Source: Acidobacteriota bacterium (lineage in GTDB: Bacteria > Actinomycetota > Acidimicrobiia > Spongiisociales > UBA5794). Taken from it: a stretch of DNA of 64,000 bases. The stretch covers positions 1 through 64,000 of the forward strand of contig JADFQA010000004.1 in NCBI GenBank assembly GCA_022562055.1. Reading direction: 5' to 3'. The notes under the pieces were generated by a model. The model did not search any database. It saw only the letters and a program-made list of their open reading frames with translations, and had not been told where the DNA came from. Both the position numbers and the translations under genes were made by a program. The stretch's first letter is position 1. Every line of letters starts with the position of its first letter. This document shows positions 36,831 to 58,328 of the stretch, one piece after another.

Positions 36831-38480
36831 ATGAACGTGGACTTCCGTACCCATCCGGATCGCTACAGGCACTGGAAGCTGACCGTGCAGGGGGAGGTCG
36901 CCCGTCTCGGCATGGATGTCGACGAAGCAGGGGGACTCGGCCCTTGGGAACTGAAGATGAATTCCTACGACCTCGGCGTGGATATCGAGCTCTACGACGC
37001 CGTACAGCGGCTCCGATTCGAGCACCCCGAGGTGAAGGCCGTCGTGATCGAATCGCTCAAGGAGCGCATCTTTTGTGCAGGGGCGAACATTCGGATGCTC
37101 GGCAGCTCCACACATCCTGAGAAGGTGAACTTCTGCAAGTTCACGAACGAGACTCGCAACGGCATCGAGGATGCCAGCGACCACTCGGGCCAACGCTATG
37201 TTGCCGCTCTAAGAGGGAACGCCGCCGGAGGGGGGTACGAGTTGGCCCTCGCAACGGACTACATCATTCTTGTAGATGACGCCACGGCCTCTGTCGCTCT
37301 TCCAGAGGTTCCGCTACTCGCGGTACTTCCCGGTACCGGTGGACTCACCCGGATGGTCGACAAGCGGCATGTCCGCCGTGATCTTGCCGATGTGTTCTGC
37401 ACCGTTGAGGAAGGGGTCAAGGGCCAGCGTGCCGTGGAGTGGCGCCTTGTCGACGAGGTTGTTCCAACCTCACGATTCGCCGAACTCGTCGATGAACGTC
37501 TGGCAGAGATGGCCGCCACGAGCGACCGCCCGTCGCACGGTCCCGGAATCGAGCTGACGCCCCTGGCGCGGGAAGTGTCCGAAACCACTATCACCTACCC
37601 CCACCTCCGAATCGAACTGGATCGTGCGGCGGGCGTCGCGACGCTGGTTATCGCCGGCCCCGGCGAGGTGCCGCCTACCGATCCAGACGGAGCCGTTACC
37701 CTCGGAGCGGCGTTCTGGCCTCTGGCGATGGTCCGTGCTCTTGACGACGCGATCCTGCACCTACGAACCAACGAGAGGGAGATCGGCACTTGGCTACTCA
37801 AGACCGAAGGAGATACGGAGCTTGTTGCTGCGCACGACGCCTTTCTTGTGAAACACGCCGACCACTGGGCGGTACGAGAGATCATTCTGTACTTGAAACG
37901 GACCCTGCGACGGCTCGATGAAACGTCTCGCTCAACGTTCGCTCTCATTGAGCCGGGAAGCTGTTTCGTCGGCGCCCTCGCCGAGATTGCCTTCGCCGCC
38001 GACCGCTGCTACATGCTTGAGGGTACCTTCGATGGCTCCGACACGACCGCACCGATACTCCGGCTCACGGCAATGAATGTTGGTCCGCTCACTATGAACA
38101 ACCACCTCACCAGGCTCGCCACTCGATTCTGGGGCAGGGACGAAACGCGAGAGCAGGCCGAGGCGCTGGTGGGGAAGGATCTCAACGCTGCGGAAGCTCT
38201 TGACGCCGAACTCGTCACGTTCGCCTACGACAAAATCGACTGGGATGACGAGTTGCGGATCACCCTTGAGGAGCGTGCGTCGTTCTCACCAGACGCCCTT
38301 ACCGGCATGGAGGCGAACCTCCGATTCCCCGGACCCGAGACTTTCGAGACGAAGATCTTCGGTCGGCTCACCGCCTGGCAGAACTGGATATTCACGCGAC
38401 CGAACGCTTCGGGACCAGACGGAGCCCTACAGCGCTATGGGACAGGACTCCGGCCCGATTTCAGCCGCCAACGAACCTGA
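36831..38480 (+). CDS. boxC: 2,3-epoxybenzoyl-CoA dihydrolase (BoxC)
   Basis: This 549-residue protein is a double crotonase-type enzyme of the BoxC size (about 550). N-terminal family features are the YRHWKLTVQGEVARLGMDV start, FCAGANIRMLGSSTHP (about residues 81-96), RGNAAGGGYELALATDY (about residues 128-144) and LPGTGGLTR. BoxC hydrolytically opens the epoxide of 2,3-epoxybenzoyl-CoA, releasing formate. It is the aerobic branch of benzoyl-CoA degradation. A -10-like TAGCAT lies just six bases before the ATG and no ribosome-binding site is obvious, so the transcript may be leaderless. boxB follows after 15 bases. Confidence 0.9.
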   Translation: MNVDFRTHPDRYRHWKLTVQGEVARLGMDVDEAGGLGPWELKMNSYDLGVDIELYDAVQRLRFEHPEVKAVVIESLKERIFCAGANIRMLGSSTHPEKVNFCKFTNETRNGIEDASDHSGQRYVAALRGNAAGGGYELALATDYIILVDDATASVALPEVPLLAVLPGTGGLTRMVDKRHVRRDLADVFCTVEEGVKGQRAVEWRLVDEVVPTSRFAELVDERLAEMAATSDRPSHGPGIELTPLAREVSETTITYPHLRIELDRAAGVATLVIAGPGEVPPTDPDGAVTLGAAFWPLAMVRALDDAILHLRTNEREIGTWLLKTEGDTELVAAHDAFLVKHADHWAVREIILYLKRTLRRLDETSRSTFALIEPGSCFVGALAEIAFAADRCYMLEGTFDGSDTTAPILRLTAMNVGPLTMNNHLTRLATRFWGRDETREQAEALVGKDLNAAEALDAELVTFAYDKIDWDDELRITLEERASFSPDALTGMEANLRFPGPETFETKIFGRLTAWQNWIFTRPNASGPDGALQRYGTGLRPDFSRQRT

Positions 38481-38495
38481 GGGAGAGATCCAACA

Positions 38496-39965
38496 ATGGC
38501 TACCGACAGTGTCGACTACTCGACGCTCATACCGAACAATGTCGGGCTTGCCGACGACCAGAAGCTGCTGCAAGCGCTTGAGAAGTGGTATCCGAAGTAC
38601 CTCGAGTGGTGGTCCGACATGGGACCGACGGGGTTCATTGCCGATACACCGTTCCAGGAAGCCGAGGTGTGGTTACGCACGGCGGTGAGTGTGGAGAAGG
38701 ACGGGTGGGCCAAGTTCGACTATGTGAAGATGCCGGAATACCGCTGGGGAATCCTCCTCGCTCCTCCCGAGGAAGGACGCACAATTCCGTTTGGTGAGCA
38801 CAAGGGCGAACCGGCTTGGCAGGAGGTTCCGGGAGCCTACCGGGCGATGCTTCGACGCCTCATCGTTATCCAGGGAGATACCGAACCAGCGTCCGTCGAG
38901 CAGCAGCGGTTCCTCGGTAGTACGGCCCCATCGTTCTACGACATGCGCAATCTCTTCCAGGTCAACGTCGAGGAGGGTCGCCATCTGTGGGCGATGGTCT
39001 ATCTGCTCCAGCGATACTTCGGGCGGGATGGCCGTGAAGAAGCCGACGAGCTTCTGCGCCGCCGCTCCGGCGACGCAGACCGTCCCAGGATGCTTGGAGC
39101 GTTTAACGAGGAGACACCAGACTGGCTGTCGTTCTTCCTGTTCACCTATTTCACCGACCGCGACGGGAAAATGCAGCTTGAGGCGCTTGCCCAGTCCGGC
39201 TTCGACCCGCTCTCGCGTACCTGTCGCTTCATGCTTGCTGAAGAAGCCCATCATATGTTCGTGGGAGCCACAGGCGTCGGCCGCATCGTGAAGCGAACCG
39301 TGGAGGCGATGCGAGATGCGGGCATCGATGACCCATACGACACGGATCGTATTCGGTCCCTCGGGGTCATCGACCTGCCACTTATTCTGCGTAAGCTCAA
39401 TTTCCACTTCTCCCTTACGCTCGACCTCTTCGGTTCGGAGGAGTCGACGAACGCTGCGGGCGCGTTCCACTCCGGGGTAAAGGGCCGTTACCACGAGACG
39501 GCAATAGACGACGACCACCAACTCGTTGGATCCACCTACCCGGTAACTAAGCACGTCGAAGGCGAATTCCGCACGGTCGAAGTGCCCGCGCTCAACGCGC
39601 TCAACGCCAGGCTTCGGGACGACTACATCGAGGACTGCGCGGGTGGTCTGAGGAGATGGAACCGCTACATCTCGGAAGCCGGCATCGACTTCGAGCTGAG
39701 CCTCCCCCACGTCGCCTTCCACCGTCAGGTCGGAGATTTCGCCGGCCTCAATGTGACCCCCAAGGGCGAGTGCCTTGACGCCGCAACGTGGGATTCGCAA
39801 CGCGCTTCATACCTTCCGGTCGAAGACGACAAGACGTTTATCGAGAAGCTCATGCAGCAGGTGACGACACCGGGCGAGTTCGCCTCGTGGATCGCCCCAC
39901 CCCAGAAGGGCGTCGGCGGAAAGCCGGTCGAGTTCGAGTACGTACAGATTCCCGGCACTACCTGA
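38496..39965 (+). CDS. boxB: Benzoyl-CoA 2,3-epoxidase oxygenase subunit (BoxB)
   Basis: The 489-residue protein is a di-iron oxygenase of the BoxB family (about 475 residues). Carboxylate-histidine pairs for the iron centre are visible in VNVEEGRHLWAMVY (about residues 153-166) and FMLAEEAHHMFVGATG (about residues 245-260). BoxB forms the 2,3-epoxide of benzoyl-CoA using O2 and electrons from the reductase BoxA. No boxA gene is present in the window, so the reductase must be elsewhere or replaced. It is preceded by GAGGGAGA and follows boxC as an operon partner. Confidence 0.92.
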   Translation: MATDSVDYSTLIPNNVGLADDQKLLQALEKWYPKYLEWWSDMGPTGFIADTPFQEAEVWLRTAVSVEKDGWAKFDYVKMPEYRWGILLAPPEEGRTIPFGEHKGEPAWQEVPGAYRAMLRRLIVIQGDTEPASVEQQRFLGSTAPSFYDMRNLFQVNVEEGRHLWAMVYLLQRYFGRDGREEADELLRRRSGDADRPRMLGAFNEETPDWLSFFLFTYFTDRDGKMQLEALAQSGFDPLSRTCRFMLAEEAHHMFVGATGVGRIVKRTVEAMRDAGIDDPYDTDRIRSLGVIDLPLILRKLNFHFSLTLDLFGSEESTNAAGAFHSGVKGRYHETAIDDDHQLVGSTYPVTKHVEGEFRTVEVPALNALNARLRDDYIEDCAGGLRRWNRYISEAGIDFELSLPHVAFHRQVGDFAGLNVTPKGECLDAATWDSQRASYLPVEDDKTFIEKLMQQVTTPGEFASWIAPPQKGVGGKPVEFEYVQIPGTT

Positions 39966-44496: not shown

Positions 44497-44569
44497 GTGA
44501 CGTTCCCTTTCAATTCTGAGTATGTTGGGTCTTGAGCGTACCTCTATCTCGTTGTGCGAGGAGTTCGTT

Positions 44570-45142
44570 GTGGTAACAGTGGATCGTCTTGTTGTCGGGA
44601 TATCCGGTGCCAGTGGTGTCGTGTACGGCGTCAGACTCCTTGAGGCGCTTGCCGACCGCAAGGACATCGAGACCCATCTTGTCGTGAGCGGCGGCGCATT
44701 GCGCACGCTCGAACTCGAGACCGATCTCACGCTTCGCGAGGTTGAGGCGCTCGCCGATCAGGTTCACGACGTGGACGATCTGGCTGCCCCGCTCTCGTCG
44801 GGATCCTTCCGGACGATGGGAATGGTTGTCGCCCCCTGCTCCATGAAGACCCTTTCGGGCATCGTGAATTCCTTCAGCGACAATCTCCTCATCCGGGCGG
44901 CGGATGTGACACTGAAGGAGCGCCGTCGGTTGGTACTGCTTCCCCGCGAGACGCCACTGCATCTCGGGCATGCACAGCTCTTCGTACGCGCCCTTGAAAT
45001 GGGTGCTGTTGTTATGCCGCCCGTTCCGGCGCTGTATCACCGTCCAACGACGGTCGCGGAGATCATCGATCACACGGTCGGACGAGTTCTTGACGTCTTC
45101 GACATCGACAACGATCTCGTTGCGCGTTGGACCGGTGGATGA
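44570..45142 (+). CDS. ubiX: Flavin prenyltransferase UbiX-like
   Basis: This 190-residue protein has the UbiX/Pad1 features LVVGISGASGVVYGVRLLEAL (about residues 7-27), FRTMGMVVAPCSMKTLSGIVNS and the C-terminal segment KERRRLVLLPRETPLHLGHAQL. UbiX makes prenylated FMN, the cofactor of UbiD-type decarboxylases. A UbiD-type gene lies 4.4 kb downstream (49542), so the pair probably serves the same reaction, carboxylation of phenylphosphate or decarboxylation of an aromatic acid. The GTG at 44570, six bases after GAGGAG, is preferred over the ATG at 44522. Confidence 0.9.
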   Translation: MVTVDRLVVGISGASGVVYGVRLLEALADRKDIETHLVVSGGALRTLELETDLTLREVEALADQVHDVDDLAAPLSSGSFRTMGMVVAPCSMKTLSGIVNSFSDNLLIRAADVTLKERRRLVLLPRETPLHLGHAQLFVRALEMGAVVMPPVPALYHRPTTVAEIIDHTVGRVLDVFDIDNDLVARWTGG

Positions 45143-45209: not shown

Positions 45210-45239
45210 TTGACACGGAAAACATGGTCGCGTTATGGT
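45210..45239 (+). promoter_or_regulatory. Predicted promoter before the pps genes
   Basis: TTGACA (45210-45215) and TATGGT (45234-45239) are separated by 18 bases. The IclR-type site at 45244-45271 begins four bases past the -10 and would cover the transcription start. The 5' leader to the ppsB-like start would be about 170 bases; nothing structured was recognised in it. Confidence 0.6.
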
Positions 45240-45243
45240 TCTA

Positions 45244-45271
45244 TATCAAGAACAAGGTTCTATGACACGAA
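45244..45271 (+). promoter_or_regulatory. IclR-type operator, copy 1 (pps promoter)
   Basis: A 28-base sequence starting TATCAAGAACAAGGTTCTAT is repeated at 48599-48626 with one mismatch (27 of 28 identical). It contains the inverted half-sites AGAAC and GTTCT. The copy overlaps the presumed transcription start of the pps genes, a position suited to repression. The IclR protein encoded at 48688 is the likely binder. Confidence 0.75.
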
Positions 45272-45418
45272 CATATCATGTACATGGGTATTTCGCATCA
45301 TGACACGGCCATGGTTGTGGAGAGACCCGCCGCGAACCCATGAATCGGTCCGAAATCGTTCCCGCGGCAGCTCGACTGAGGTCGAGCTCATCCAGCCCTA
45401 CGCGGGGCTAAAAGCACC

Positions 45419-46567
45419 GTGAAGATGGACACCGAGTACCTGGTTGTGTTCGAGAACTGCCTCGACGACAGCGTCGCCTTGGTCGGAGGCAAGAGCACGG
45501 GACTCGGAAGCATGATCCGGGCGGGGATCCCGGTTCCTCCCGGTTTCGCGGTGACCACCCGTGCCTATAGGGCGATGCTCGAAGAAGGAGCATTGGATCA
45601 TGAGATCGCCGAACTCCTTGATCGGGCGGATCCCGACGACGTCGCCGGCCTTGAAGAGATCAGCCGTTCGATCGCTGCCTTGATCGAGGGTTCCGCCATT
45701 CCCGCAGATGTCGAGGCGGAGATTCGCCAGGGATACGACATGCTTGCCTCGGTGTCCTGTGGTGGAACAGATGCGAATGGACGCGATCTGGATTTGCCAG
45801 TCGCCGTGCGTTCGAGCGCCACCGTAGAGGATCTGCCCGACGCGAGTTTCGCGGGCCAGCAGGATACGTTCTTGTGGATCGTTGGCGCGGACAGCGTTCT
45901 TGAGCATGTGAGACGCTGCTGGTCGAGCCTGTACACCGCACGGGCAATCGCCTACCGAATCGAGAAGGGCTACCACCGCGAGAAGATCCACATGAGCGTG
46001 GTCATTCAGAAAATGGTGAATGCCCGCGCCGCCGGTGTGATGTTCACGCTCAATCCGATCAACGGCGACCGCTCGAAAGTCGCAATCGATGCAAGCTGGG
46101 GACTGGGCGAAGCTGTGGCCTCAGGTGAGGTGACGCCGGATAACTACCTCGTCGATACGATCGCGATGAGGATCGCCAAACGCACAGTTTCATCCAAGGC
46201 GATTGAATATCGTGCGAATCCTGCCACGGAACGGATCGAGCGGACCGTCGTGCCACCGGAACGCCGGGATGCCCCGTGCCTCGCTGACGAAGAGATTCTC
46301 ACTCTCAGTCGCCTGGCGCGCCGCGTCGAAGCCCACCACGGGCGTCCCCAGGATCTCGAGTGGGCGATCGACGCCGATCTCGAACCACCTGACAACATCG
46401 TGCTCCTTCAGAGTCGGCCCGAAACGGTCTGGAGCGATCGCGATCGCAAACAGGTTTCTAGGGGCGACCGGTCGACCATGGACCACATCGTGGCGAATCT
46501 CCTCGCCGGAGTTCGGCTGCGACACGGCGATTCGGATACCGACAATATCGGAGGTGTGCTGGGTTAG
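45419..46567 (+). CDS. ppsB: Phenylphosphate synthase, ATP-binding subunit (PpsB-like; PEP synthase N-terminal domain)
   Basis: This 382-residue protein corresponds only to the N-terminal, ATP-grasp domain of PEP synthase: GGKSTGLGSMIRAGIPVPPGFAVTTRAY, VRSSATVEDLPDASFAGQQDTFLW, MSVVIQKMVNARAAGVMFTLNP and DLEWAIDADLEPPDNIVLLQSRPE. It lacks the phosphohistidine and PEP-binding domains. In Thauera aromatica phenylphosphate synthase is split the same way, with a subunit of about 40 kDa resembling the PEP synthase N-terminus and one of about 70 kDa with the catalytic histidine, which is the next gene here. Start is GTG 45419 or ATG 45425. A third CBS-domain subunit (PpsC) was not found. Confidence 0.85.
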   Translation: MKMDTEYLVVFENCLDDSVALVGGKSTGLGSMIRAGIPVPPGFAVTTRAYRAMLEEGALDHEIAELLDRADPDDVAGLEEISRSIAALIEGSAIPADVEAEIRQGYDMLASVSCGGTDANGRDLDLPVAVRSSATVEDLPDASFAGQQDTFLWIVGADSVLEHVRRCWSSLYTARAIAYRIEKGYHREKIHMSVVIQKMVNARAAGVMFTLNPINGDRSKVAIDASWGLGEAVASGEVTPDNYLVDTIAMRIAKRTVSSKAIEYRANPATERIERTVVPPERRDAPCLADEEILTLSRLARRVEAHHGRPQDLEWAIDADLEPPDNIVLLQSRPETVWSDRDRKQVSRGDRSTMDHIVANLLAGVRLRHGDSDTDNIGGVLG

Positions 46568-46652
46568 ACCAACGATGCAACGGCGCCGGTGGCCTGGGAC
46601 GGCGGTGAGGAACTCGGACAACAGACAGATACGCAAACGCGAGGAGAGACCG

Positions 46653-48473
46653 ATGAGCGAAACACGTTTCCCCAATCCCTTCGAGGTGCCAACCCCGGAA
46701 GGTTGTGAGGGATGGGAAGATCTATACCCGTACTACTACCTGTTCAGTGAGGAACGCAGGGAGTTCGAGGAGTCGAAGTTCTGGTTCTTCGACGGCATGC
46801 ACCACCCGGAGGTGTTGTACCCGTTTGACACCATCACCTGTGAGAGTTGGTGGGTTGCGTTGGGGGAGATGAATACGCGGGTCTTCATCGTGCCCCCGGC
46901 CCTGGGGATCGACCAGAGAGTTCTCAACGGACGCCTCTACATCAGCGCAAATGCGATCATGGACGAAGAGGTTGTCGAGGAACGGGTAGCGCACTTCATG
47001 GAGCGCGCCGGTTACTACTACGAGCACTGGGATGAGCTCTACGACAAGTGGAAGGACAAGGCTCGCCAGACGATCGAAGAGCTCAAGGCAGTGGACGTCA
47101 AACCTCTTCCTGAGATGGAGGACATCGAGGTCGTCCATGCCGGCAGGGGCCTCACCTCGGCGTACGACCTGCTCGTGGCGTACAACCGTGTCATCGAGAA
47201 CATGCACAAGATCTGGCATCTCCACTTCGAGTTTCTGAATCTGGGTTACGCCGCCTACCTGACCTACTTCGGGTTCTGCAAAGAACTCTTTCCTGACATC
47301 CCTGATCAGGTTGTGGCTCAGATGGTGGCCGGCATCGATGTCCTCCTCTTCCGACCAGACGCGGAATTGAAGAAGCTCGCGGCGAAAGCTGTGGATCTCG
47401 GGGTGGGTGACGCCCTCAAGGACAACACTGAGCCGGCCGTGGTGATCGAAGCGCTTGAGCAGTCAGAAGCAGGTCGACGGTGGATAGCGGAGCTTGAGAA
47501 GGCGAAGGACCCCTGGTTCTACTTCTCGACAGGCTCAGGTTTCTACCACCATCACAAGACCTGGATCAATGACCAAACCTTCCCTTTCAGCGGAATTGCC
47601 GACTACATCCGCAAGATCGAGGCAGGCAAGAGCATTGAACGTCCCCTGAAAGAAATCATCGCGGAGCGCGATCGCCTGTCTGCCGAGTATGCGGCGCTTC
47701 TCGACGGCGATGACCTCAAGAACTTCAACGACCAGTTGGGCCTCGCAAGAACGGTCTTCCCGTTCATAGAGGACCACAACTTCTACGTTGAACACTGGCA
47801 CCATGCCGTGTTCTGGAACAAGATGCGCGAGTTCGGCCAGATCTTTGTCGACGCCGGGTTCTTCGAGGAGGTGGACGATATGTTCTACCTCCATCGCTTC
47901 GAGGTCGAGGCTGCGCTATACGACCTCATTTCCTCTTGGGCCGTCGGAACGCCGGCGAGAGGCCCGGGATACTGGCCGAAGAAGATCGTGAAACGCAAGG
48001 AGCTCTTCGAGAAGCTCTCCGAGTGGACGCCGATCCCCGCTCTGGGCGAACCGCCTGAAGTCGTCACCGAACCGTTCACCATCATGTTGTGGGGAATCAC
48101 GACGGACTCGATCCAGAACTGGCTCGGTGTCGGTCAGGATGAGAGCGCCGACTATGACTTGAAGGGTTTCGCCGCGTCTCCCGGCACGGTCGAGGGTCTC
48201 GCGAGAGTGATCATGAGCGCGGATGAGCTCGCCGATGTGCAGGAAGGCGAAGTTCTCGTCTGCCCGATCACAAATCCGAGCTGGGGTCCGGTGTTCTCGA
48301 AAATCGCCGCGGCGGTGACCGACATCGGTGGAATGATGTCTCACGCCTCGATTGTGTGTAGAGAGTACGGCGTCCCAGCGGTCGTCGGAACCGGCTTTGC
48401 CACACAGAAGATTAAGACCGGTCAACGGCTGCGCGTCGACGGCGCTGCCGGGACCGTGACGTTCCTCGACTGA
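46653..48473 (+). CDS. ppsA: Phenylphosphate synthase, phosphohistidine subunit (PpsA-like)
   Basis: The 606-residue protein ends with the mobile phosphohistidine domain of PEP-utilising enzymes: GGMMSHASIVCREYGVPAVVG, with His564 as the phospho-acceptor. The Thauera subunit is about 70 kDa with its catalytic histidine near 569, so both size and position match. The N-terminal 480 residues (NPFEVPTPEGCEGWEDLYPYYYLF; FEFLNLGYAAYLTYFGFCKELFPDIP) have no ATP-grasp fold and probably form the phenol-binding part. The ATG at 46653 follows GAGGAGAG; an upstream in-frame extension merely overlaps ppsB. ATP plus phenol would give phenylphosphate, AMP and Pi. Confidence 0.87.
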   Translation: MSETRFPNPFEVPTPEGCEGWEDLYPYYYLFSEERREFEESKFWFFDGMHHPEVLYPFDTITCESWWVALGEMNTRVFIVPPALGIDQRVLNGRLYISANAIMDEEVVEERVAHFMERAGYYYEHWDELYDKWKDKARQTIEELKAVDVKPLPEMEDIEVVHAGRGLTSAYDLLVAYNRVIENMHKIWHLHFEFLNLGYAAYLTYFGFCKELFPDIPDQVVAQMVAGIDVLLFRPDAELKKLAAKAVDLGVGDALKDNTEPAVVIEALEQSEAGRRWIAELEKAKDPWFYFSTGSGFYHHHKTWINDQTFPFSGIADYIRKIEAGKSIERPLKEIIAERDRLSAEYAALLDGDDLKNFNDQLGLARTVFPFIEDHNFYVEHWHHAVFWNKMREFGQIFVDAGFFEEVDDMFYLHRFEVEAALYDLISSWAVGTPARGPGYWPKKIVKRKELFEKLSEWTPIPALGEPPEVVTEPFTIMLWGITTDSIQNWLGVGQDESADYDLKGFAASPGTVEGLARVIMSADELADVQEGEVLVCPITNPSWGPVFSKIAAAVTDIGGMMSHASIVCREYGVPAVVGTGFATQKIKTGQRLRVDGAAGTVTFLD

Positions 48474-48480
48474 GAGCCGC

Positions 48481-48515
48481 GACTCGCCCGGGGATTCCCC
48501 TGCCCCGGGCGAGTC
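48481..48515 (+). terminator. Strong hairpin after ppsA
   Basis: GACTCGCCCGGGG pairs perfectly with CCCCGGGCGAGTC (13 bp, 9-base loop) and starts seven bases after the ppsA stop. The following sequence (CCTGCTTATCT) is only weakly T-rich. It most likely ends the pps transcript before the separate iclR unit. Confidence 0.75.
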
Positions 48516-48598
48516 CCTGCTTATCTCTGGGAAACGACCGATCCGAGAAAGCAAGAACAGCCATTTGAGACTCAAACCTATTGTATGATATTGTTCCG

Positions 48599-48626
48599 TA
48601 TCAAGAACAAGGTTCTATGACCCGAA
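48599..48626 (+). promoter_or_regulatory. IclR-type operator, copy 2 (iclR promoter)
   Basis: This copy is 27/28 identical to 45244-45271. It lies nine bases past a -10-like TATGAT (48584-48589). It is extended upstream by TTGTTC (48591-48596), which pairs with GAACAA (48605-48610). Position upstream of iclR implies autoregulation together with control of the pps genes. Confidence 0.75.
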
Positions 48627-48687
48627 TAATGCTCTCCACCTGGCCGCCAGCCACACTGGCCCGCCCACGTCTTCGATTGAGGCGGAT

Positions 48688-49518
48688 GTGGTAGTGCGGG
48701 TTTCGGCAGTCGAACGGGCAATCCAGATTCTGCGTGCGTTCGAGCGTCACGATGACTACAGCCTCACCGAGCTGGTGTCGCTGCTGTCGCTCAACAAGAG
48801 CACGGCGTACGGGATCCTCCAAACACTCACCGACTTCCGGTTCCTCACGAGGGATCCGAGGACCCGCCGCTACCGCTTGGGGCCTGCCTTGATCCGCCTG
48901 GGTCATCTTGCCGATGTGCAGACCGAGATACGTGCTATTGCGCGGCCACACATGGAGTTGCTCGTTCAGAAGATTCGCAAGTCCGTACTCCTGGGAACGC
49001 TCAACGAGGATCAGCTCACGATTGTTGACAAGGTTGATCCTGTTGGCATCCTGCACGTGTCGGCGGCGATCGGCCAGCAGATCCCGTTCTCCGCCGGCTC
49101 CTTCGGTCGTGTTTTCCTCGCGTGGCTCCCCGATGATCGAGTCGACAGTTTGATTGCAACACACGGGCTTGAAGCTTTCACGCCGACCTCGATCACCGAC
49201 CCCGACGCCTACAAGGTAGAGCTCGCGCGAGTGCGCGAATGCGGGTACGCCGTGGATGACAAGGAGGAATACCTGGTCGGGGTGCGTGCAGTTTCGGTGC
49301 CGCTCAAGAATGCCGACGGCGTCGTTGCCGCTCTCACTGTCGTCGGGTTTACCTCACGTTCGGGAAACCAGCCCGGTGAGTACGCCATAAAGGCCGCAGT
49401 GCGGGCCGGACAGGAGATCTCGAGACAACTTGGCGCCGATATCGCGGATCCTGATGAGGTCTCAAGTGCGGAGGGTGTCGATCTGAAAAGTTCCCCCGGG
49501 GTGTCTCGTGACGTGTGA
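48688..49518 (+). CDS. IclR family transcriptional regulator
   Basis: This 276-residue protein has the IclR layout: N-terminal winged helix (SAVERAIQILRAFERHDDYSLTELVSLLSLNKSTAYGILQTL, about residues 6-47) and a C-terminal effector-binding domain (about residues 80-250). IclR proteins often control aromatic catabolic genes, with an aromatic acid or its CoA ester as effector. Two nearly identical 28-bp sites, one before its own gene and one before the pps genes, are its probable targets. It starts at GTG 48688 with no strong ribosome-binding site. The UbiD-type gene follows after only 23 bases, so the carboxylase is probably co-transcribed with it. Confidence 0.88.
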   Translation: MVVRVSAVERAIQILRAFERHDDYSLTELVSLLSLNKSTAYGILQTLTDFRFLTRDPRTRRYRLGPALIRLGHLADVQTEIRAIARPHMELLVQKIRKSVLLGTLNEDQLTIVDKVDPVGILHVSAAIGQQIPFSAGSFGRVFLAWLPDDRVDSLIATHGLEAFTPTSITDPDAYKVELARVRECGYAVDDKEEYLVGVRAVSVPLKNADGVVAALTVVGFTSRSGNQPGEYAIKAAVRAGQEISRQLGADIADPDEVSSAEGVDLKSSPGVSRDV

Positions 49519-49541: not shown

Positions 49542-50969
49542 ATGCCGTTCAGCGACCTACGATCATTCATCGACCGACTCGACGAGGAGGGCCAGCTCCA
49601 TAGGATCGATAGGGAGGTGGACTGGAACCTTGAGCTGAGCCACGTTGCCAAGCTCAACGAGGAACGCCAGGGCGGGGGTTCCGCGCTGCTGTTCGAGAAC
49701 ATCAAGGACTACCCGGGACACCGCGTCTTCATCAGCGCAATGACGGCCAGGGAGCGGCTGGCCCTAGCCCTCGAAATGCCCCAGGACACAAGCCTCATGC
49801 ACCTCTCCGAGGAATGGGTGGATCGCATCCACGGAAAACGGGTTCCCCCGAAGGTGGTCGAATCAGGGCCCGTCAAGGAGAATATCTTGCTCGGTGACGA
49901 TGCCGACATCCTGAAGATTCCCTCTCCGTGGTTTTACCCCGGAGATGGGGGACGCTACTTCGGTACCGCTGGATATCTCATCACCCGCAACCTGAAGACG
50001 GGGCGCCTGAACCTAGGTACCTATCGCGCCATGGTCGGCGACAGCCGGGAACTGTGCATCTACATGATCAAAGCCAAGGACGGCGAGATCGACTTTCGGG
50101 ACTACCAGGAAGCCGGGATCCCGATGCCGGTGGCATACGTGTCCGGCAGCGATCCGACGCTCTTCCTCTGCGGAAGCACTCTCTTCGGTCTCGACGAGAG
50201 CGAGTACGACATCGCCGGAGCGCTCCGCGGTGGACCAGTCGAGGTCGTGAAAGCCGAGACCTCCGACCTGCTGGTGCCGGCAACCGCTGAATGGGTGGTC
50301 GAGGGCGAAATCGTGCCCGGCGAGACCCGTCCGGAGGGACCGTTCGGCGAGTACACCGGTTACTACTCCGGCAAGGGAGACCAGGAGCAGTACTTCATTC
50401 GAGTGAAGGCGATCACCCATCGCAACGAGCCGATTCTCTGGTCGACAACTGTCGGCAGGCCCACCACCGACACCCACATGATCATGAGCGTCAACCGCAC
50501 CGCGTCGCTGTGGAACGACCTGCGGCGTATGCAGATCCCCGGGATCAAGGCCGTGTACGGGCCCCCGGCCGCAGCCGGGCGGATGCTGGTCATCATCTCG
50601 GTGAACCAGATGTACCACGGCCACTCGACCCAGGTCGGTCTGGCGGCGTTCGCGTCGACCACAGGGAACTATGGTCTGAAAACGGTGATCCTTGTCGACG
50701 ACGATATCGACGTTGAGAACATGGATCAGGTGATGTACGCTTTAAGCTTCAAGTATCAGCCGGAGTTCGGCACTCAGATCCTTCACCGGGGGCGTTCAAC
50801 CCCACTCGATCCGTCCCTTCCCCGTTCGAATCGATTCATGACGTCACGTGTCATCCTCGACTGCACGACACCCTATGAGTGGGACGAGGACGAGCTGCCG
50901 CCGAAGATCTACCTCGATGACGACATGGCCCAACATGTGAAGGACCACTGGGACGAGTACTTCGGATGA
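49542..50969 (+). CDS. UbiD family (de)carboxylase, phenylphosphate carboxylase-like subunit
   Basis: The 475-residue protein is a UbiD-fold enzyme. The active-site motif RPEGPFGEYTGYYSG is present with Arg263, Glu265 and Glu270 (the two glutamates five apart, as in UbiD), and the prenyl-FMN-binding region LGTYRAMV at about residues 158-165. Members of this family form the alpha and beta subunits of phenylphosphate carboxylase and also decarboxylate aromatic acids. With pps genes, UbiX and a HAD phosphatase nearby, carboxylation of phenylphosphate to 4-hydroxybenzoate is the best guess. Only one UbiD gene is present where Thauera has two, so either it is a homomer or the reaction differs. Confidence 0.85.
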   Translation: MPFSDLRSFIDRLDEEGQLHRIDREVDWNLELSHVAKLNEERQGGGSALLFENIKDYPGHRVFISAMTARERLALALEMPQDTSLMHLSEEWVDRIHGKRVPPKVVESGPVKENILLGDDADILKIPSPWFYPGDGGRYFGTAGYLITRNLKTGRLNLGTYRAMVGDSRELCIYMIKAKDGEIDFRDYQEAGIPMPVAYVSGSDPTLFLCGSTLFGLDESEYDIAGALRGGPVEVVKAETSDLLVPATAEWVVEGEIVPGETRPEGPFGEYTGYYSGKGDQEQYFIRVKAITHRNEPILWSTTVGRPTTDTHMIMSVNRTASLWNDLRRMQIPGIKAVYGPPAAAGRMLVIISVNQMYHGHSTQVGLAAFASTTGNYGLKTVILVDDDIDVENMDQVMYALSFKYQPEFGTQILHRGRSTPLDPSLPRSNRFMTSRVILDCTTPYEWDEDELPPKIYLDDDMAQHVKDHWDEYFG

Positions 50970-50988: not shown

Positions 50989-51816
50989 TTGAACATCCGA
51001 GGCGTGAATCATCCCATCGAGGGCGTCATCTTCGATATTGACGGTACGGTCGCCCGGGGGCGCCAGGTTCTTCCCGGCTCCCTCGACACCCTCGCCGAAC
51101 TGCGCCGCCGGGCCATTCAGTTCGCCTTCTTCACGAACGACAACTCGAATCCGATTGGATTCTGGGTGGAACGGCTCGCCGACATGGGTATCGATGCGGC
51201 ACCGGGAGAGATCATCACCTCGGCGCTTGTCGCCGCGGAGGTGATGGCCGAACTCCATCCTGCCAGCCCGATTCTGGCCGTCGGTGACGTCGGCCTGTTC
51301 GAAGCGCTCGGTGCGAAGAACCTCGATCTCGTTGACGCCGACGATGTTGATCGGGCAACGGTCGTGGTGATGGGGAAAGACCCGAATTTCGACCAGAATC
51401 GCCTCAATGTCGTCTGCAGGGCCATCTGGAACGGAGCCAAGTTCTTTGCCACCAACTACGATCCGAGACTGCCCGTCGCGGGCGGATTCGTCCCGGCGAC
51501 GGGTCCGATGGTGAAAGCGGTGGCGTACGCCACGGGCCACGAACCCGTCGTCACAGGCAAGCCGTCGCCGTGGTCGGGGCGGATGGCGATGCGCATCCTG
51601 GGAATCGCCCCTGAGCGAGGGCTAGTCGTCGGGGATCAGCTCTCAACCGATATCGCCATGGGCCGCAACGCAGGGATGCGCACCGTCCTCGTGCTCACCG
51701 GTACCGCCGATGCAAGCGATGTCGACGAGGCCCCTCCCGAACAGCGACCCAGTGTGGTCGTCGACGGTGTCGGCGATCTGATCCCATGGCTTGATGCTCA
51801 CTCCACGGCCGAGTAA
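50989..51816 (+). CDS. HAD superfamily (NagD-like) phosphatase, possible phenylphosphate carboxylase delta-type protein
   Basis: This 275-residue class II HAD hydrolase has the nucleophile motif VIFDIDGTVARG (about residues 13-24), the second motif FFTNDNSNP, a conserved lysine in VTGKPSPW and the acidic motif LVVGDQLSTDIAMGRNAGM. Phenylphosphate carboxylase of Thauera includes a HAD-like delta subunit; this gene sits just where that subunit would, 19 bases after the UbiD gene. It may dephosphorylate phenylphosphate within the carboxylase complex, or be an unrelated sugar-type phosphatase. Start: TTG 50989 (GGAG seven bases upstream) or GTG 51004. Confidence 0.78.
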   Translation: MNIRGVNHPIEGVIFDIDGTVARGRQVLPGSLDTLAELRRRAIQFAFFTNDNSNPIGFWVERLADMGIDAAPGEIITSALVAAEVMAELHPASPILAVGDVGLFEALGAKNLDLVDADDVDRATVVVMGKDPNFDQNRLNVVCRAIWNGAKFFATNYDPRLPVAGGFVPATGPMVKAVAYATGHEPVVTGKPSPWSGRMAMRILGIAPERGLVVGDQLSTDIAMGRNAGMRTVLVLTGTADASDVDEAPPEQRPSVVVDGVGDLIPWLDAHSTAE

Positions 51817-52056
51817 CCGGCCGACTGGCGACACTGGCGTGAACACCGGGTATGCCCCGCATCGGGCATGCTTGACGGTATCGCCTCGAGGGAGGAAACA
51901 AGTATCATCCATACCGATCCAGAACAGGGAATTTTAGCGAGCAAAGGGCCGGGAAAAGCGCATTGGGTGTGGTGATGATCCGTTCGAGGCGCGACCAGAA
52001 CGATCTCGAAAGAGGCGTCCTGCGCTGCCGGACAGATATTGATTGTGGGAGCACTG

Positions 52057-53121
52057 ATGGAACAACGCACCGACAGATACTCATGGCGCCTCGTTGCACC
52101 GGGCCGGCCGCTCGAGCGGACCGAGCAAGCTGGCAGACCACCTGAGGCGGATGAGGTTCTCATCGAGGTCGCCGGGTGTGGGCTGTGCCATACCGACCTC
52201 GGATTCATCGACGGCACGGTAAAGACGCGTGCGCAACTCCCGCTCGTACTCGGCCACGAGATCAGTGGTCGGGTTGTGGAAGCAGGCAGGGGCGCCGAGG
52301 AGTGGCAGGGGAGAGATGTGCTTGTCCCTGCGGTCATCCCGTGCGGCGACTGCGACCTTTGCAACTCAGCCAGAGGAAACGTGTGCACCCGCCAGAAGAT
52401 GCCGGGCAACGACCTCGACGGCGGCTTTGCCACCCACGTCACGGTACCGGCAACGGGGCTGTCGGTGGTCGAGAACCTTCCGGCGGGTTATGACCTTGCG
52501 GATCTTTCAGTCGTCGCCGACGCTGTGACGACACCTCTACAAGCTGTCCGACGAGCCGAGGTTTCCGCGGGAGACTTCGTCGTCGTGGTCGGCGCCGGCG
52601 GTGTCGGTGCGTATGCGGTACAGATAGCAGCGGCGAGCGGAGCGACGGTGATCGCAGTCGACATTGATGACGTCCGCCTCGACCTGCTTCTGCGGCACGG
52701 CGCCGCGGGCACGGTCAACGCACGGGGCCTCTCATCTCGGGAGATCCGTGACCGGGTTCGGGACGAAGCAAGGGCGTGTGGGCAACCGCGAGTGGGGTGG
52801 AAGATCTTCGAGTGTTCGGGAACCCCGACCGGGCAGGAGACCGCATACGGTTTGCTCGGACCTGCAGCGACGTTGGCGGTCGTCGGGTTCACCATGGAGA
52901 AGATCACAATCAGATTGTCGAACCTAATGGCATTCGACGCTACCGCGTTCGGCAGCTGGGGCTGTCCGACCGAGAAATACCCCGAGGCGATCGAACTGGT
53001 CACGTCAGGGAGGGTGCAGCTGCTGCCTTTCACCCGCAAAGTTCCGATGCGTGAGATATCCGCGGTCATCGCCCAATCACATGAGCGCAGCGACCACCGC
53101 AGAACGATCCTTATCCCATGA
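52057..53121 (+). CDS. had: 6-hydroxycyclohex-1-ene-1-carbonyl-CoA dehydrogenase (Had)
   Basis: This 354-residue zinc-dependent medium-chain dehydrogenase has catalytic Cys in CGLCHTD, GHEISG, the structural zinc cysteines in PCGDCDLCNSARGNVC and the Rossmann motif GAGGVGAYAVQ. The signature QKMPGNDLDGGFATHV is characteristic of Had (BamQ/BzdX-like) proteins. It oxidises the 6-hydroxy intermediate to 6-oxocyclohex-1-ene-1-carbonyl-CoA with NAD. It stands directly upstream of its pathway partners oah and dch. The ATG at 52057 is preferred over 52039 because GGGAG lies upstream. Confidence 0.9.
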   Translation: MEQRTDRYSWRLVAPGRPLERTEQAGRPPEADEVLIEVAGCGLCHTDLGFIDGTVKTRAQLPLVLGHEISGRVVEAGRGAEEWQGRDVLVPAVIPCGDCDLCNSARGNVCTRQKMPGNDLDGGFATHVTVPATGLSVVENLPAGYDLADLSVVADAVTTPLQAVRRAEVSAGDFVVVVGAGGVGAYAVQIAAASGATVIAVDIDDVRLDLLLRHGAAGTVNARGLSSREIRDRVRDEARACGQPRVGWKIFECSGTPTGQETAYGLLGPAATLAVVGFTMEKITIRLSNLMAFDATAFGSWGCPTEKYPEAIELVTSGRVQLLPFTRKVPMREISAVIAQSHERSDHRRTILIP

Positions 53122-53185
53122 AAGCACTTGTCTTCCGACCAATCCTGTCCCTCGACCATCCCTAACCGATGAAAGGTGAAGCACC

Positions 53186-54286
53186 ATGAAGTTCGTAGAC
53201 CACGATCTTGCTCCAGATATTGAGTTCAACGAAATTCTCTATGAGAACCGGCCGGTGTTCGACACCGGCGGCGCAGCCGTCGACGGATTGCACGTAGTGT
53301 GGATCACGCTGAACAACCCTCAGCAGCTCAACTCGTACACGACAGAGTCCGTAAAAGAGGTCATCTTGGCGTTTCGGCGGGCGTCGGTGGATCGCGCCGC
53401 TGTAGCAGTCGTCTTCACCGGAGTTGGGGACCGTGCGTTCTGCACCGGGGGTAACACGGAGGAGTACTCCGAGTATTACGCAGGCCGACCGGGCGAGTAT
53501 CGGCAGTACATGCGCCTGTTCAACGACATGGTGTCAGCGATCCTCATGTGCGACAAACCAGTCATTAACCGTGTCAACGGCATGCGTATCGGCGGAGGGC
53601 AAGAGATCGGCATGGCGTGCGACTTCACCCTGGCGTCGGACCTTGCCCGTTTTGGCCAGGCAGGGCCGAAACACGGGTCGGCGCCCGATGGCGGTTCGAC
53701 GGACTTCCTCGACCTATACGTGGGGTGGGGAGAGGCCATGGCTAGCTGCGTCCTCTGCGAACCGTGGAGCGCACACGAGGCGTTGCGGCTCGGTCTCGTC
53801 AACGATATCTTTCCAGTGCTCAAGATCGATGGGGAGTTCATCCCGAACCCCCTCGTTATCACCGACCGATACCTGGACAAGTGGGGCAAGATCGTCCATG
53901 GCAAGTCGAAGGAGAGCGAAGACCTCGCTGCCGCAAAGTTGCTGTTGAAGGCTGGAACCATCGACTTCTCGATGCTCGATGCAGGTGTCGATGCAATTCT
54001 GACCAAGATCCTCTACACAATGCCGGACTGTACCCTCAAAACGACTGAATCGGTGCGCAAGAAGAAGCTCGAGCATTGGGACAAGAACAAGGAATCTAAC
54101 CGGGCATGGCTGTCGCTCAACATGATGACTGAGGCCAAGGCAGGGTTTCAGGCGTTCCACCGGGGTTCACGGGAGGTCGGGAGAGAAGTCGACTTCATCG
54201 ACCTGCGCCGCCGGCTCGCCGCAGGTGAGATGTGGGGCGACGACCTCATCGAATCCGTTTCACCCCAGTACAAATCCGACTCATGA
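53186..54286 (+). CDS. oah: 6-oxocyclohex-1-ene-1-carbonyl-CoA hydrolase (Oah/BamA)
   Basis: The 366-residue protein is an unmistakable ring-opening hydrolase, the enzyme used as the marker gene (bamA) for anaerobic aromatic degradation. Diagnostic motifs are FCTGGNTEEYSEYYAG (residues 85-100), YRQYMRLFNDMVSAIL, NGMRIGGGQEIGMACDF (131-147) and FGQAGPKHGSAPDGGSTDF. It hydrates and cleaves the ring ketone to 3-hydroxypimeloyl-CoA. The gene overlaps dch by four bases. Presence of this gene strongly supports a functional reductive benzoyl-CoA pathway. Confidence 0.95.
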   Translation: MKFVDHDLAPDIEFNEILYENRPVFDTGGAAVDGLHVVWITLNNPQQLNSYTTESVKEVILAFRRASVDRAAVAVVFTGVGDRAFCTGGNTEEYSEYYAGRPGEYRQYMRLFNDMVSAILMCDKPVINRVNGMRIGGGQEIGMACDFTLASDLARFGQAGPKHGSAPDGGSTDFLDLYVGWGEAMASCVLCEPWSAHEALRLGLVNDIFPVLKIDGEFIPNPLVITDRYLDKWGKIVHGKSKESEDLAAAKLLLKAGTIDFSMLDAGVDAILTKILYTMPDCTLKTTESVRKKKLEHWDKNKESNRAWLSLNMMTEAKAGFQAFHRGSREVGREVDFIDLRRRLAAGEMWGDDLIESVSPQYKSDS

Positions 54287-55047
54287 GCGACGTCTGGGTA
54301 CGTCACGATGTGTCTGGCGACGGTGCGATCCACACGATTACGTTCGACAAGCCCCCAGGAAACGTGATCGACATTGCCCTGTGCGGACAGCTCGTCCCAG
54401 CGATCGCGGCTGCCGGCGAGGCGGTGGACGCCAAGGCTCTCGTTCTCCGTGGCGCCGGCAAGAATTTTTCTTTCGGTGCAAGCGTCGAAGAGCATCTCCC
54501 TGACAAAGCTCCCCAGATGCTGGCTGCGCTCGGCGGAGTTGTCCGCGCACTCGTCGGATTCCCCTACCCCACGATCGCTGGAGTCCAGGGCGCTTGCTTG
54601 GGTGGTGGTCTGGAGCTCGCTCTTGCGTGCGGGATCGTGATCGCCGAGAGAAGCGCGACTCTTGCATGCCCCGAGATACAGCTCGGTGTCTTGCCACCCG
54701 CAGCAACCGCGTTGCTTACCGGCAGAGCGGCGGAAGACGTGATCCTCACCGGTCGTAACCTCACCCCTAAAGAGGCAAGACGTCTCGGCATCGTCAACGT
54801 GATTGCAAAGACCGGTGAATTGGACGCCGTAATCGAAACGTTCGTGCAGCAACACTTTGCTCTGCGTTCAGCCTCTTCGTTGCGTCTGGCCACGAAAGCG
54901 TTGCGGGCGAGCCGTGTCGTTGAGTTCGAGCAGCGCCTCGATGCGGCAGAGCAGGTCTATCTCGAAGAACTGCTGTCGACACACGACGGAGTAGAAGGCA
55001 TCGAGGCATTCATCGAGAAGCGCCCGCCCGTGTGGAGGAACGCCTAG
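54283..55047 (+). CDS. dch: Cyclohexa-1,5-diene-1-carbonyl-CoA hydratase (Dch)
   Basis: This 254-residue crotonase-fold hydratase begins with ATG overlapping the oah stop (ATGA). It has the oxyanion-hole motifs FSFGASVEEHLPDKAP and [20 protein letters not shown], with the SVEEHLPD segment typical of Dch (BamR/BzdW-like). It adds water to the dienoyl-CoA formed by benzoyl-CoA reductase. The gene order had-oah-dch gives all three steps between the reductase and ring opening. It converges with the benzoyl-CoA reductase operon. Confidence 0.9.
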   Translation: MSDVWVRHDVSGDGAIHTITFDKPPGNVIDIALCGQLVPAIAAAGEAVDAKALVLRGAGKNFSFGASVEEHLPDKAPQMLAALGGVVRALVGFPYPTIAGVQGACLGGGLELALACGIVIAERSATLACPEIQLGVLPPAATALLTGRAAEDVILTGRNLTPKEARRLGIVNVIAKTGELDAVIETFVQQHFALRSASSLRLATKALRASRVVEFEQRLDAAEQVYLEELLSTHDGVEGIEAFIEKRPPVWRNA

Positions 55048-55078
55048 ATGGCAAGGCCGAGCCCGGCAAGTCTCGGCG

Positions 55079-55351
55079 TCAGCTCGTCTCCCGCTTGCGC
55101 GTGTACAGCGCGACGTAGGTCGCGCATGCCGTGACAGCGCAGCTCGTGCATGCGTCACCAAAGCTCGACGGGTCGAGTGCGGCCGTGGTTGTCTCGAAGT
55201 CAAGACTCGCGTAGAGCTCCTCTAGCTCGCCGACACGCGCCGGGTCTGTGACTGTGCGCCGCTGCCAACCCTGTGCGGCGAGAACGGGATCCCGGAGGAT
55301 TTGCACGCCGGCTGAGCAATACAACACTTCCGAACCCGCGTCCTTGCTCAC
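55079..55351 (-). CDS. Small cysteine-motif protein coupled to the benzoyl-CoA reductase genes
   Basis: A 90-residue frame starts at GTG overlapping the stop of the preceding ATPase-subunit gene (GTGA), so it is translated as the last cistron of the reductase operon. It has no signal peptide. A cysteine group C-x2-C-x4-C (ACTSCAVTACATY, about residues 69-81) near the C-terminus and a single Cys near residue 11 could bind an iron-sulfur cluster or metal. I do not recognise the family. It may be an electron carrier, an assembly factor, or a stabilising subunit of the reductase. Confidence 0.65.
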   Translation of the reverse strand: MSKDAGSEVLYCSAGVQILRDPVLAAQGWQRRTVTDPARVGELEELYASLDFETTTAALDPSSFGDACTSCAVTACATYVALYTRKRETS

Positions 55352-56196
55352 ATCCCTGCTCCCGCGGCCGCTGCTACGTTGCTTCCGGTTCTCGTGCCTG
55401 TGGCTGCGAGTTTTTCTAAACGGCGTCGGGCGAGGATTGCGCAACCGAGGGCCGGCACGAACTGAACCATGTCGCTTGCAGGGACGTTGACGTCCGCCTT
55501 GAGCAAGGCGCTGACTGCATTGCCCATGGTCTCGAAGCGTAGGATCCCCCCGATGAGTGTAAATTCGGACTCGGCCCGCACCCGCTTCATAAGCTGAACC
55601 GAGCGACCTGTCAGCGACTCGATTGCTCCCTGCATGATGTCAGCCGGCGGCGTCCCGAGCGAGAGGTGGTTGATCACCTCAGACTCGGCGAACACCGCGC
55701 ATACACCCGATATCGGGACCGGTTGTTTCGACGTGACCATAAGGGCGTTGATCTCTCGGATATCGTATCCCATGTAGCGGGCGGTCTTTTCGAGAAAGGC
55801 ACCGGTGCCTGCGGCGCACTTGTCGTTGAGCCGGAAGGAGATGACCTTTGCTGTCTGATCAACACGACTCGCCTTCATTGTCTGACCACCGATGTCGAGA
55901 ATCGTGCGGGTTTCAGGGAACAGGAAACATGCTCCGCGGGCGCTTGCGGTGAGGTCCGTGACTTGGAGGTCCTTGAAGTCGACCTGGTGTCTGCCAGGTC
56001 CGGTTGCGATCACATACGAGATGTCGTCTTCGCTCAGCCCGGCTTCCTCAAGAACCCGGTCGTAGATCTTCCGGGCGATTTCCCGAAGCCTGAACCCGGT
56101 CGGAAGCATTATCCGGCTGAGGATCTTTCCGTCTTCGTCCTGAAGAAGAGCCTTGGCGTAGGTGGATCCGATATCCAATCCTGCGGTGATAGTCAT
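55348..56196 (-). CDS. Benzoyl-CoA reductase ATPase subunit (BzdP/Q or BcrA/D type), second copy
   Basis: This 282-residue protein is a BadF/BadG/HgdC-family ATPase: phosphate-binding [17 protein letters not shown] near the N-terminus, [26 protein letters not shown] and [12 protein letters not shown], the last two with the cysteines that ligate a bridging [4Fe-4S] cluster. It pairs with the upstream ATPase gene. Both chains are about 280 residues, as in the Azoarcus bzd-type reductase, whereas Thauera-type BcrA is much longer. Hydrolysis of ATP drives electrons to the catalytic subunits. The ATG at 56196 overlaps the previous stop by four bases. Confidence 0.87.
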
Positions 56197-57023
56197 AGCG
56201 CCAACCCCGCTTCGGTGGTGATCGGTGTTCGGCCGGTGAGGACGTGATCGAGGGCAAAAAGCGCCGCACCGAGAGCTCCCATGTAGTGGCAATCGTCGCT
56301 GACGTTCATCGACTTCTCAAGGCGTTCCTCAAGTGCCTTGATCATGCCCAAGTTGAGCGAAACACCTCCCGTGAATGTGATCTCATCGTTGACGCCGACT
56401 CGACGCATGAGTCCCGCCGATCGGGATGCGATCGACTTGTGGACGCCCCACAGGATGTCTTCGATTTTCTTTCCCTTACCGATCCAGGCGAGTATCTCTG
56501 ACTCCGCGAAGACCGTGCAGGTTGTGCTGATTTTGATCGGCTTCGTACTTTTGAGAGAGACCGGGCCGAGTTCGTCTATCGGGATGTCGAGTGCTGCTGC
56601 TGCGGCACCGAGGAACCGGCCGGTGCCGGCGGCGCACTTGTCGTTCATGCAGAAGTCGATGATCTCGCCCGCGGCATTCACCGAGATCGCCTTGGTGTCC
56701 TGTCCGCCCATGTCGACGACGGTTCTCGTGTTGGGGAACAGGTGCACTGCGCCCCGCCCGTGACAACTGATCTCGGTGACCTGGGTATTGCCGAATGTCA
56801 CTCGATACCGGCCGTAGCCCGTGCCGACGACGTACTCGACTTCTTCCTCGTCGATACCGTGCTCTTCGAGCGCCGTCAGGAACGAGTCCTCGGCGGCTTT
56901 GATGACGTTGGCGCCTGTGTCGATGAGGGAGCGGCCGACGATGGTTCCGTCTTCATCGACGATGACGGCCTTGGTTTGGGTCGATCCAACGTCGACTCCC
57001 GCTGCGTATGCCACTGCAATCAC
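56193..57023 (-). CDS. Benzoyl-CoA reductase ATPase subunit (BzdP/Q or BcrA/D type), first copy
   Basis: The 276-residue protein has the ATPase motifs [47 protein letters not shown] and [13 protein letters not shown]. Conserved cysteines of the last two motifs hold the cluster shared between the two ATPase chains. The GTG start follows AAGGA. It and the following subunit are close in size and presumably form the heterodimeric activase module. Which is the P and which the Q chain cannot be settled by eye. Confidence 0.87.
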
Positions 57024-57032
57024 CTATTCCTT

Positions 57033-58328
57033 TCAGCCGGCCGTCTCGTGTTGCCTACGGGATTCCAGTCCCTCGAAGAAGGCATCGATCCTGTTTTTCA
57101 TCTGAGCCTCGGAGACGACTCGCCGGTCCATCATGTCCGACTCAATGAACAGACTCGGGATGCCAAGCTCCTTCATCATGTGCTTGCGACCATCAGCGAG
57201 GCCGGTTGAAACAGTTCGGCAGCTTTTGATCGGATGGTAAATGATGCCGTCAACATCGAAGGTCTCGGCCATGTCAGCGATGGCCACGTTCTGGTGAAAC
57301 ATCGCGTCCATTGCGTCGCGAACACTGATGAGGACACCTTCAGCGAGGCTCGCCAGCGGATCACCGAGGTCATACTCGAACCCCCGGTTGGTACCACCAG
57401 ACGCGAACCAGAGGTACGTCGAGTTGACGAATGTGCCGCCCCAATCGGTAAAGAGCTCGTTGAATCGACGAAAGATCGGGTAGCAGGGAACACCGACGAA
57501 GAGCAGGCGATACTTCTCATCTATCGCCTGGCCGATCCCGTTCGCCGCCTTGTACTCCATTTCCTCTACTAGCCGCTCGAAGTAGCGGGCGCCCTCCTCG
57601 GTGCCACGGAACCCGTTGGCAACGCCGAGAAAAATCGTTCCGTCGGTGAGGGCGCTAAACAAAGACGGCTTTGAAGTGTTGAGCTCGAGGATCCGTTTCC
57701 AAGAGCGGCTCATCGTGTTGGCGTACCCGAGCACTTCGCGGAACTTGTCGATGTCGAACTTCTTACCAGTCACTTCCTCACACAGCGTGATGAGTTCGCG
57801 CAACTGCACTTCGACATACGTACGGTCGGCCTCGAAATCGGCGTTTCCTCGCCAGGTTTGGCCGCCTGCCTGACGTGTGCCGGGAACGTCGATCGTGAAG
57901 ACCGGTATGCCGTACATGCGCTCCCAGATCTCCGCCCACTTGATATACGTGTTGCAAGCATTCGTAAGCACGGCGAGGCTCGGTTGCGGAATCTGGGCCA
58001 TCGGATGCTCTCCGCCACGGAGCTGGGTGCCGATATCAGCCTTGACGTAGCCGCAGATGTCTGGTGAGTAACCGTAGTTCTCGGCCTCCTCCAGGTACTC
58101 GTGTGCGACGTGACGGACCGCGGTCTGGAGCGAGTTGATCTCGGGAAACACGACGGGCAGGTCGAACGTCTTCAAGATCTCGTTGAGGCTTCCCATTACG
58201 AACACATACGCGGCCTGCCCACCGTTCTTTGCCGTGTTGTCGAGTTCCGTGAACCAGTCGCGGAACATTGCAGCACCCTCACGGTTTCCGCGCCCCACCA
58301 GTTCGTCTGTGGATCCGAGTGTTGTCAT
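57033..58328 (-). CDS. bzdO: Benzoyl-CoA reductase catalytic subunit (BzdO/BcrB/BadE-like)
   Basis: This 431-residue protein belongs to the HgdB/BcrB/BcrC family of 2-hydroxyacyl-CoA dehydratase-type subunits. Conserved cysteines such as those in TNACNTYIKWAEIW, VGVPCYPIF and IKSCRTVSTGL (about residue 374) are candidate [4Fe-4S] ligands. With BzdN it reduces benzoyl-CoA to cyclohexa-1,5-diene-1-carbonyl-CoA. Dehydratases of the same family are the main alternative, but the adjoining tetR, the two ATPase genes and the nearby Dch/Had/Oah genes favour benzoyl-CoA reductase. Confidence 0.88.
   Translation of the reverse strand: MTTLGSTDELVGRGNREGAAMFRDWFTELDNTAKNGGQAAYVFVMGSLNEILKTFDLPVVFPEINSLQTAVRHVAHEYLEEAENYGYSPDICGYVKADIGTQLRGGEHPMAQIPQPSLAVLTNACNTYIKWAEIWERMYGIPVFTIDVPGTRQAGGQTWRGNADFEADRTYVEVQLRELITLCEEVTGKKFDIDKFREVLGYANTMSRSWKRILELNTSKPSLFSALTDGTIFLGVANGFRGTEEGARYFERLVEEMEYKAANGIGQAIDEKYRLLFVGVPCYPIFRRFNELFTDWGGTFVNSTYLWFASGGTNRGFEYDLGDPLASLAEGVLISVRDAMDAMFHQNVAIADMAETFDVDGIIYHPIKSCRTVSTGLADGRKHMMKELGIPSLFIESDMMDRRVVSEAQMKNRIDAFFEGLESRRQHETAG

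Follow-up and report, generated by a model that had tools for sequence, protein, structure and literature searches.

Predicted IclR-type operators at the phenylphosphate-synthase-like and iclR promoters of an acidimicrobial gene cluster

In a cluster that carries genes for a phenylphosphate-synthase-like kinase, an IclR-family regulator and a UbiD-type enzyme, nearly the same short sequence stands before ppsB and again before iclR. We asked what this repetition means for the control of the cluster, analyzing the whole 64,000-nucleotide stretch of DNA (the window) together with the source genome and its relatives.

Two matching elements at the ppsB and iclR promoters

The sequence-only reading had described a 28-bp motif upstream of ppsB (45244-45271, TATCAAGAACAAGGTTCTATGACACGAA) that recurs upstream of iclR (48599-48626, TATCAAGAACAAGGTTCTATGACCCGAA) with 27/28 identity. 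Read directly, the two sequences differ at a single base, and the coordinates, the identity and both locations proved exact. The recurrence therefore stands, but not the extent of the unit: with a left half-site added to the 28-mer, the conserved element is 35 bp long, and its two copies, O1 and O2 (Table 1), are identical at 31/35 positions. Outside the element, identity is 54% upstream, where the promoter is shared, and 26-30% downstream. Both copies are laid out as four half-sites, GTTC-N8-GAAC-N3-GTTC-N8-GAAC, the final box of O2 (GAAT) departing from this pattern at one base, and repeat analysis resolved O1 into an 18-nt direct repeat with a spacing of 19. Both window sites, and every relative in the alignment, have two tandem GTTC-N8-GAAC palindromes with centres 19 bp apart.

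Table 1. Promoters, operators and genes of the cluster, with window coordinates
Feature	Coordinates	Strand	Details
ubiX, flavin prenyltransferase	44561..45142	+	upstream of O1; profile searches
promoter of ppsB-ppsA	45210..45239	+	TTGACA-18-TATGGT; -10 overlaps operator by 2 bp; consensus scan
predicted operator O1	45238..45272	+	35 bp, GTTC-N8-GAAC-N3-GTTC-N8-GAAC; contains 45244-45271; PWM 58.0
ppsB, ATP-binding (PPDK_N) subunit of phenylphosphate-synthase-like kinase	45419..46567	+	Pfam PF01326, E 2.2e-110
ppsA, phosphotransfer (PEP-utilizers) subunit	46653..48473	+	PF00391; NF006153 above cut-off
promoter of iclR-ubiD-HAD	48565..48594	+	TTGAGA-18-TATTGT; -10 overlaps first operator box by 2 bp; consensus scan
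predicted operator O2	48593..48627	+	35 bp, GTTC-N8-GAAC-N3-GTTC-N8-GAAT; contains 48599-48626; PWM 42.3
iclR, IclR-family regulator (HTH_IclR + IclR_C)	48688..49518	+	presumed binder of O1 and O2
ubiD-type decarboxylase/carboxylase	49542..50969	+	nearest phenylphosphate carboxylase subunit beta, TIGR02724
HAD-IIA phosphatase	50989..51816	+	fixed position after ubiD in relatives

When up to 3 mismatches are permitted, the window contains the 16-base core, AAGAACAAGGTTCTAT, two times (expected 0.12); the 2.93-Mb genome has it exactly twice, with an extra match on another contig that has 2 mismatches; the four-box pattern has two sites at 0-1 mismatches and no others genome-wide. The genome-wide core search, which the earlier reading had itself proposed, thus finds two sites only, which excludes a dispersed repeat. 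We also scored the window with a weight matrix from whose training set the source genome had been left out. The next-best 35-column match scored -14.5, as against 58.0 for O1 and 42.3 for O2, and we rejected a wider regulon within the window that would take in the hcr, box, bcr and had/oah/dch promoters. When single dyads were scored, the real ones reached 10.4-23.9, and the next-best, at 51441 within a coding stretch, reached 9.6.

A consensus scan, which covered promoters of the sigma-70 type only, placed one such promoter before each element, its -10 hexamer overlapping the first 2 bp of the 35-bp unit, in agreement with the earlier claim that each motif adjoins a -10-like element. TTGAC is kept at roughly equal distance in most relatives. 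From the end of the -10 hexamer, O1 and O2 extend over the expected transcription start. The iclR product scored 48.9 bits against PF09339 (cut-off 22) and 117.2 bits against PF01614 (cut-off 24), which places it in the IclR family, and the HTH segment LNKSTA(Y/H/F)GIL is conserved among its orthologues.

We favor repression, since the operators lie across the -10 hexamer and the region where transcription should begin, a position from which a bound protein usually obstructs polymerase. It is unlikely that the same IclR protein acts at these sites as an activator in the manner of PcaU and PobR, although its nearest NCBIfam model is PcaR/PcaU/PobR (TIGR02431), a subfamily that contains activators, and the alternating boxes recall the PcaU sites in the IclR-family survey (Suvorova and Gelfand 2021, PMC8222616). 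Against that model the protein scored 134.9 bits, far under the cut-off of 284.75, and it is not assigned to the subfamily.

The kinase has both expected domains (PPDK_N and PEP-utilizers), divided between its two subunits. The UbiD protein scored 417.2 bits against TIGR02724, its best-scoring model, under the cut-off of 468.95, and is described as similar rather than assigned. Phenol is the probable substrate of PpsAB because of the neighboring genes, namely ubiD, nearest to phenylphosphate carboxylase subunit beta, 4-hydroxybenzoyl-CoA-reductase-like genes and benzoyl-CoA genes.

Genes of both benzoyl-CoA routes lie at 36831-39965 and 52039-60278, at most 25 kb apart and flanking the pps cluster on both sides. 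For the aerobic route, boxC and boxB were above their NCBIfam cut-offs; for the anaerobic route, had and oah were above and the dch-like and bcr-like reductase subunits below. Two BcrA/BcrD-like genes for ATPase subunits, at 55348-57023, are called with an overlap of ~100 bp, and one start is probably placed too far upstream.

Conservation of the element and its tie to the regulator

We searched 99 genomes, the source genome included, and found IclR orthologues (68-82% identity) in eight. In 8/8 of these, the four-box pattern at 0-1 mismatches is confined to the pps and iclR promoters, and perfect sites are present in 8/8 genomes with an IclR orthologue as against 0/91 without one (Fisher 6e-12, an overstated value, as the genomes are related and do not amount to 99 independent trials). 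Several of the relatives are incomplete MAGs with common ancestry. One-mismatch matches to the pattern in IclR-negative relatives were taken as chance, their non-box bases being unlike those of the operators. An in-frame TGA in the iclR of G007 and G024 looks like the normal stop, which the search had read through: residue 252 is the last one aligned by tblastn, and these orthologues are shorter there.

A gapless alignment of 16 sites from 11 genomes of Acidimicrobiia, to which further loci from named genomes had been added, gave 1.60 bits per column within the 35 bp, compared with 0.39 in the 50 bp upstream and 0.62 in the 40 bp downstream. The 35-bp element is, by this measure of sequence, a phylogenetic footprint under selection. 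The selection claimed in the earlier reading is upheld because the footprint extends across genomes; two copies in one genome alone would have been insufficient proof.

The part with the deepest conservation is the inner pair, GAAC-N3-GTTC, which the core of the earlier reading had captured. Across 80 loci with IclR relatives (background rate 0.0019), this pair was found at most 220 bp upstream of iclR in 12/12 loci whose IclR is at least 48% identical and in 0/68 at 38% or below. The 12 include the Chloroflexi loci L051 and L052, with IclR homologues ~50% identical, and L052 retains the order iclR-ubiD-HAD-ppsA. As computed here, then, the site has a defined structure, is conserved, occupies at most two places per genome and is strictly tied to this IclR subfamily.

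The two elements are predicted to be IclR sites because in relatives their presence or absence matches that of the regulator. In particular, G021 (L151) keeps ubiD-HAD-ppsB-ppsA, with a PpsA 81% identical, and at that locus iclR, ubiX and the operator are all missing. This strict co-occurrence, together with a motif and spacing that match the IclR family (PMC8222616), makes it very unlikely that the sites are operators of another transcription factor governing both promoters, even though a second conserved element near the operators (GCATCAY near positions +36 and +59, counted from the first base of the operator) suggests that a further factor may act there.

This second element directly follows the operator (window 45273-45303) and is repeated ~23 bp on, with TGG between. 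By alignment it spans ~+36 to +66 on the same numbering and accompanies most operators of both genes; it is eroded after O2 of the window, and scanning the window with a weight matrix revealed no further copy. It may be bound by another factor or function in the leader.

Operator number and gene order

Three layouts were observed. In the first, ubiX-[O]-ppsB-ppsA-[O]-iclR-ubiD-HAD, there are two operators (G000, G001, G002, G009 and G040, the last on a short contig that starts after ubiX). In the second, ubiX-[O]-iclR-ubiD-HAD-ppsB-ppsA, there is one (L043, L044 and L046/G036, whose contig is cut at both ends). The third, [O]-iclR-ubiD-HAD, also has one operator, with pps not seen in the locus (G007, G024 and L050, on a short contig) and with ubiX upstream wherever that gene was found. 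Operator count thus tracks layout: there are two if pps is upstream of iclR and one if pps is downstream or does not adjoin. The number of operators probably equals the number of transcripts needing control. In genomes of one genus, a more distantly related pps pair (PpsA 57%) is located outside the iclR-ubiD locus (L152, G007:C23), and ~4 kb from that pair G007 has a different IclR homologue (35%).

Presence, absence and gene order all agree with the earlier proposal that the sites tie IclR to pps and to autoregulation, in which binding is predicted from sequence. The pps/iclR regulon proposed at the same time is supported for both promoters and is incomplete in its genes, as the iclR transcript adds UbiD and the HAD phosphatase.

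The leader after O1 of G001 and G002 is 71-77% identical to the single-operator leader of iclR in L043 and 31% identical to the leader after their own O2. Because the O1 leader resembles that of L043 over the O2 leader of the same genome, the comparison suggests a history in which pps arrived downstream of an old operator and upstream of iclR, with duplication of the operator. An old promoter duplication therefore probably occurred, and the copies in G000 are 27/28 alike; yet it is most improbable that the repeat is merely a recent duplication of a promoter segment, or gene conversion, with no selection on a binding site. Within all five two-operator genomes, the flanks are 23-55% alike as against 80-89% for the operators, and the same columns recur in several genera, with conservation of the inner pair reaching Chloroflexi. 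That the element acts as RNA, as a leader hairpin or riboswitch, is scarcely credible: AGAACaagGTTCT could fold as a short hairpin in the 5' leader, but its stem has just 5 bp, the element's left part falls at or upstream of the position where transcription should begin, and Rfam, searched with E up to 1, gave nothing on the element and one weak match elsewhere, far under the gathering score.

A candidate repressor circuit and its relation to known systems

Overall, the results indicate that O1 and O2 are very probably operators of the adjacent IclR-family regulator, which most likely represses both transcripts and its own synthesis. An IclR tetramer would suit the four GTTC/GAAC half-sites, which form two 16-bp palindromes facing roughly the same side of the helix. 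Bound at O1 and O2, it would mask the final bases of the -10 hexamer together with the expected start and would repress ppsB-ppsA and iclR-ubiD-HAD; repression of its own gene via O2 would give a small autoregulated circuit of two sites and two transcripts. A signal from the aromatic pathway (phenol, phenylphosphate or 4-hydroxybenzoate) may release IclR from the operators, and this release would free phenol phosphorylation by PpsB-PpsA and carboxylation by UbiD with UbiX together. The signal need not be phenol, because G007 and G024 have the operator, iclR and ubiD in a locus without pps. What we infer in this circuit is that IclR physically binds the sites, that it represses, that a tetramer occupies each operator and which molecules act as inducer, and another factor may act beside the operators, given the second conserved element in most relatives.

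More tentatively, we propose that a dedicated IclR repressor controls phenol phosphorylation in Acidimicrobiia, and in a related form in Chloroflexi, that it reads the four boxes of the 35-bp operator with both published pairings in each tetramer, and that duplication of the operator accompanied the arrival of pps between it and iclR. The analysis supplies a concrete candidate regulator and operator for the phenol-activation cluster of an uncultured actinobacterial lineage.

Among IclR-family proteins, TtgV binds operator DNA as a tetramer and controls efflux. It is likened to the window IclR by protein sequence, as a relative with E 2e-22 (PDB 2xrn, 2xro). Our literature search found a single regulator of phenylphosphate synthase with experimental support: PheR, an unrelated proteobacterial sigma-54-dependent activator with a V4R phenol-sensing domain, which controls pps(-ppc) in Aromatoleum aromaticum EbN1 (PMC10715001). 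The two systems are alike in that phenylphosphate synthase, the first step of anaerobic phenol degradation, is regulated; unlike EbN1, the window has an IclR-family regulator and a sigma-70-type promoter, the type that our scan covered. The actinobacterial kinases HpeHI and CreHI, homologues of phenylphosphate synthase, act on hydroxyphenylethanones and 4-cresol; HpeHI partners a biotin-dependent carboxylase, not UbiD, and the text describes no IclR link for either (PMC9618137). Only one paper in the literature search, on Geobacter metallireducens (PMC1924859), mentions both phenylphosphate synthase and IclR, the IclR gene there lying elsewhere in the aromatics island and untied to pps; none joins IclR with UbiD, an operator and phenol.

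The operator architecture itself is already described. In PMC8222616, GTTC-type palindromes in tandem, with centres 18-22 bp apart, are read as tetramer sites, and three-box sites that join two pairings are also described. O1 and O2 have both the palindromes and the distance: like the tandem sites of IclR-family group 1, they have GTTC...GAAC boxes, and their 19-bp centre distance lies inside that range. The GTTC-N8-GAAC spacing is closest to the NpdR motif GTTCMRYATMRTGAWS of the same source. The main text of that survey mentions no regulon containing phenylphosphate synthase and UbiD carboxylase, and such a regulon appears to be unreported. The three-box PcaU/PobR/PcaR operators of the beta-ketoadipate pathway resemble O1 and O2 in their alternating half-sites, with GAAC-N3-GTTC inside and GTTC...GAAC outside, and in serving aromatic catabolism, whereas O1 and O2 have four boxes and lie over the core promoter. 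With its almost invariant half-site pattern, the four-box operator is a good substrate for the question, raised in that survey, of whether IclR proteins pair in two ways on DNA.
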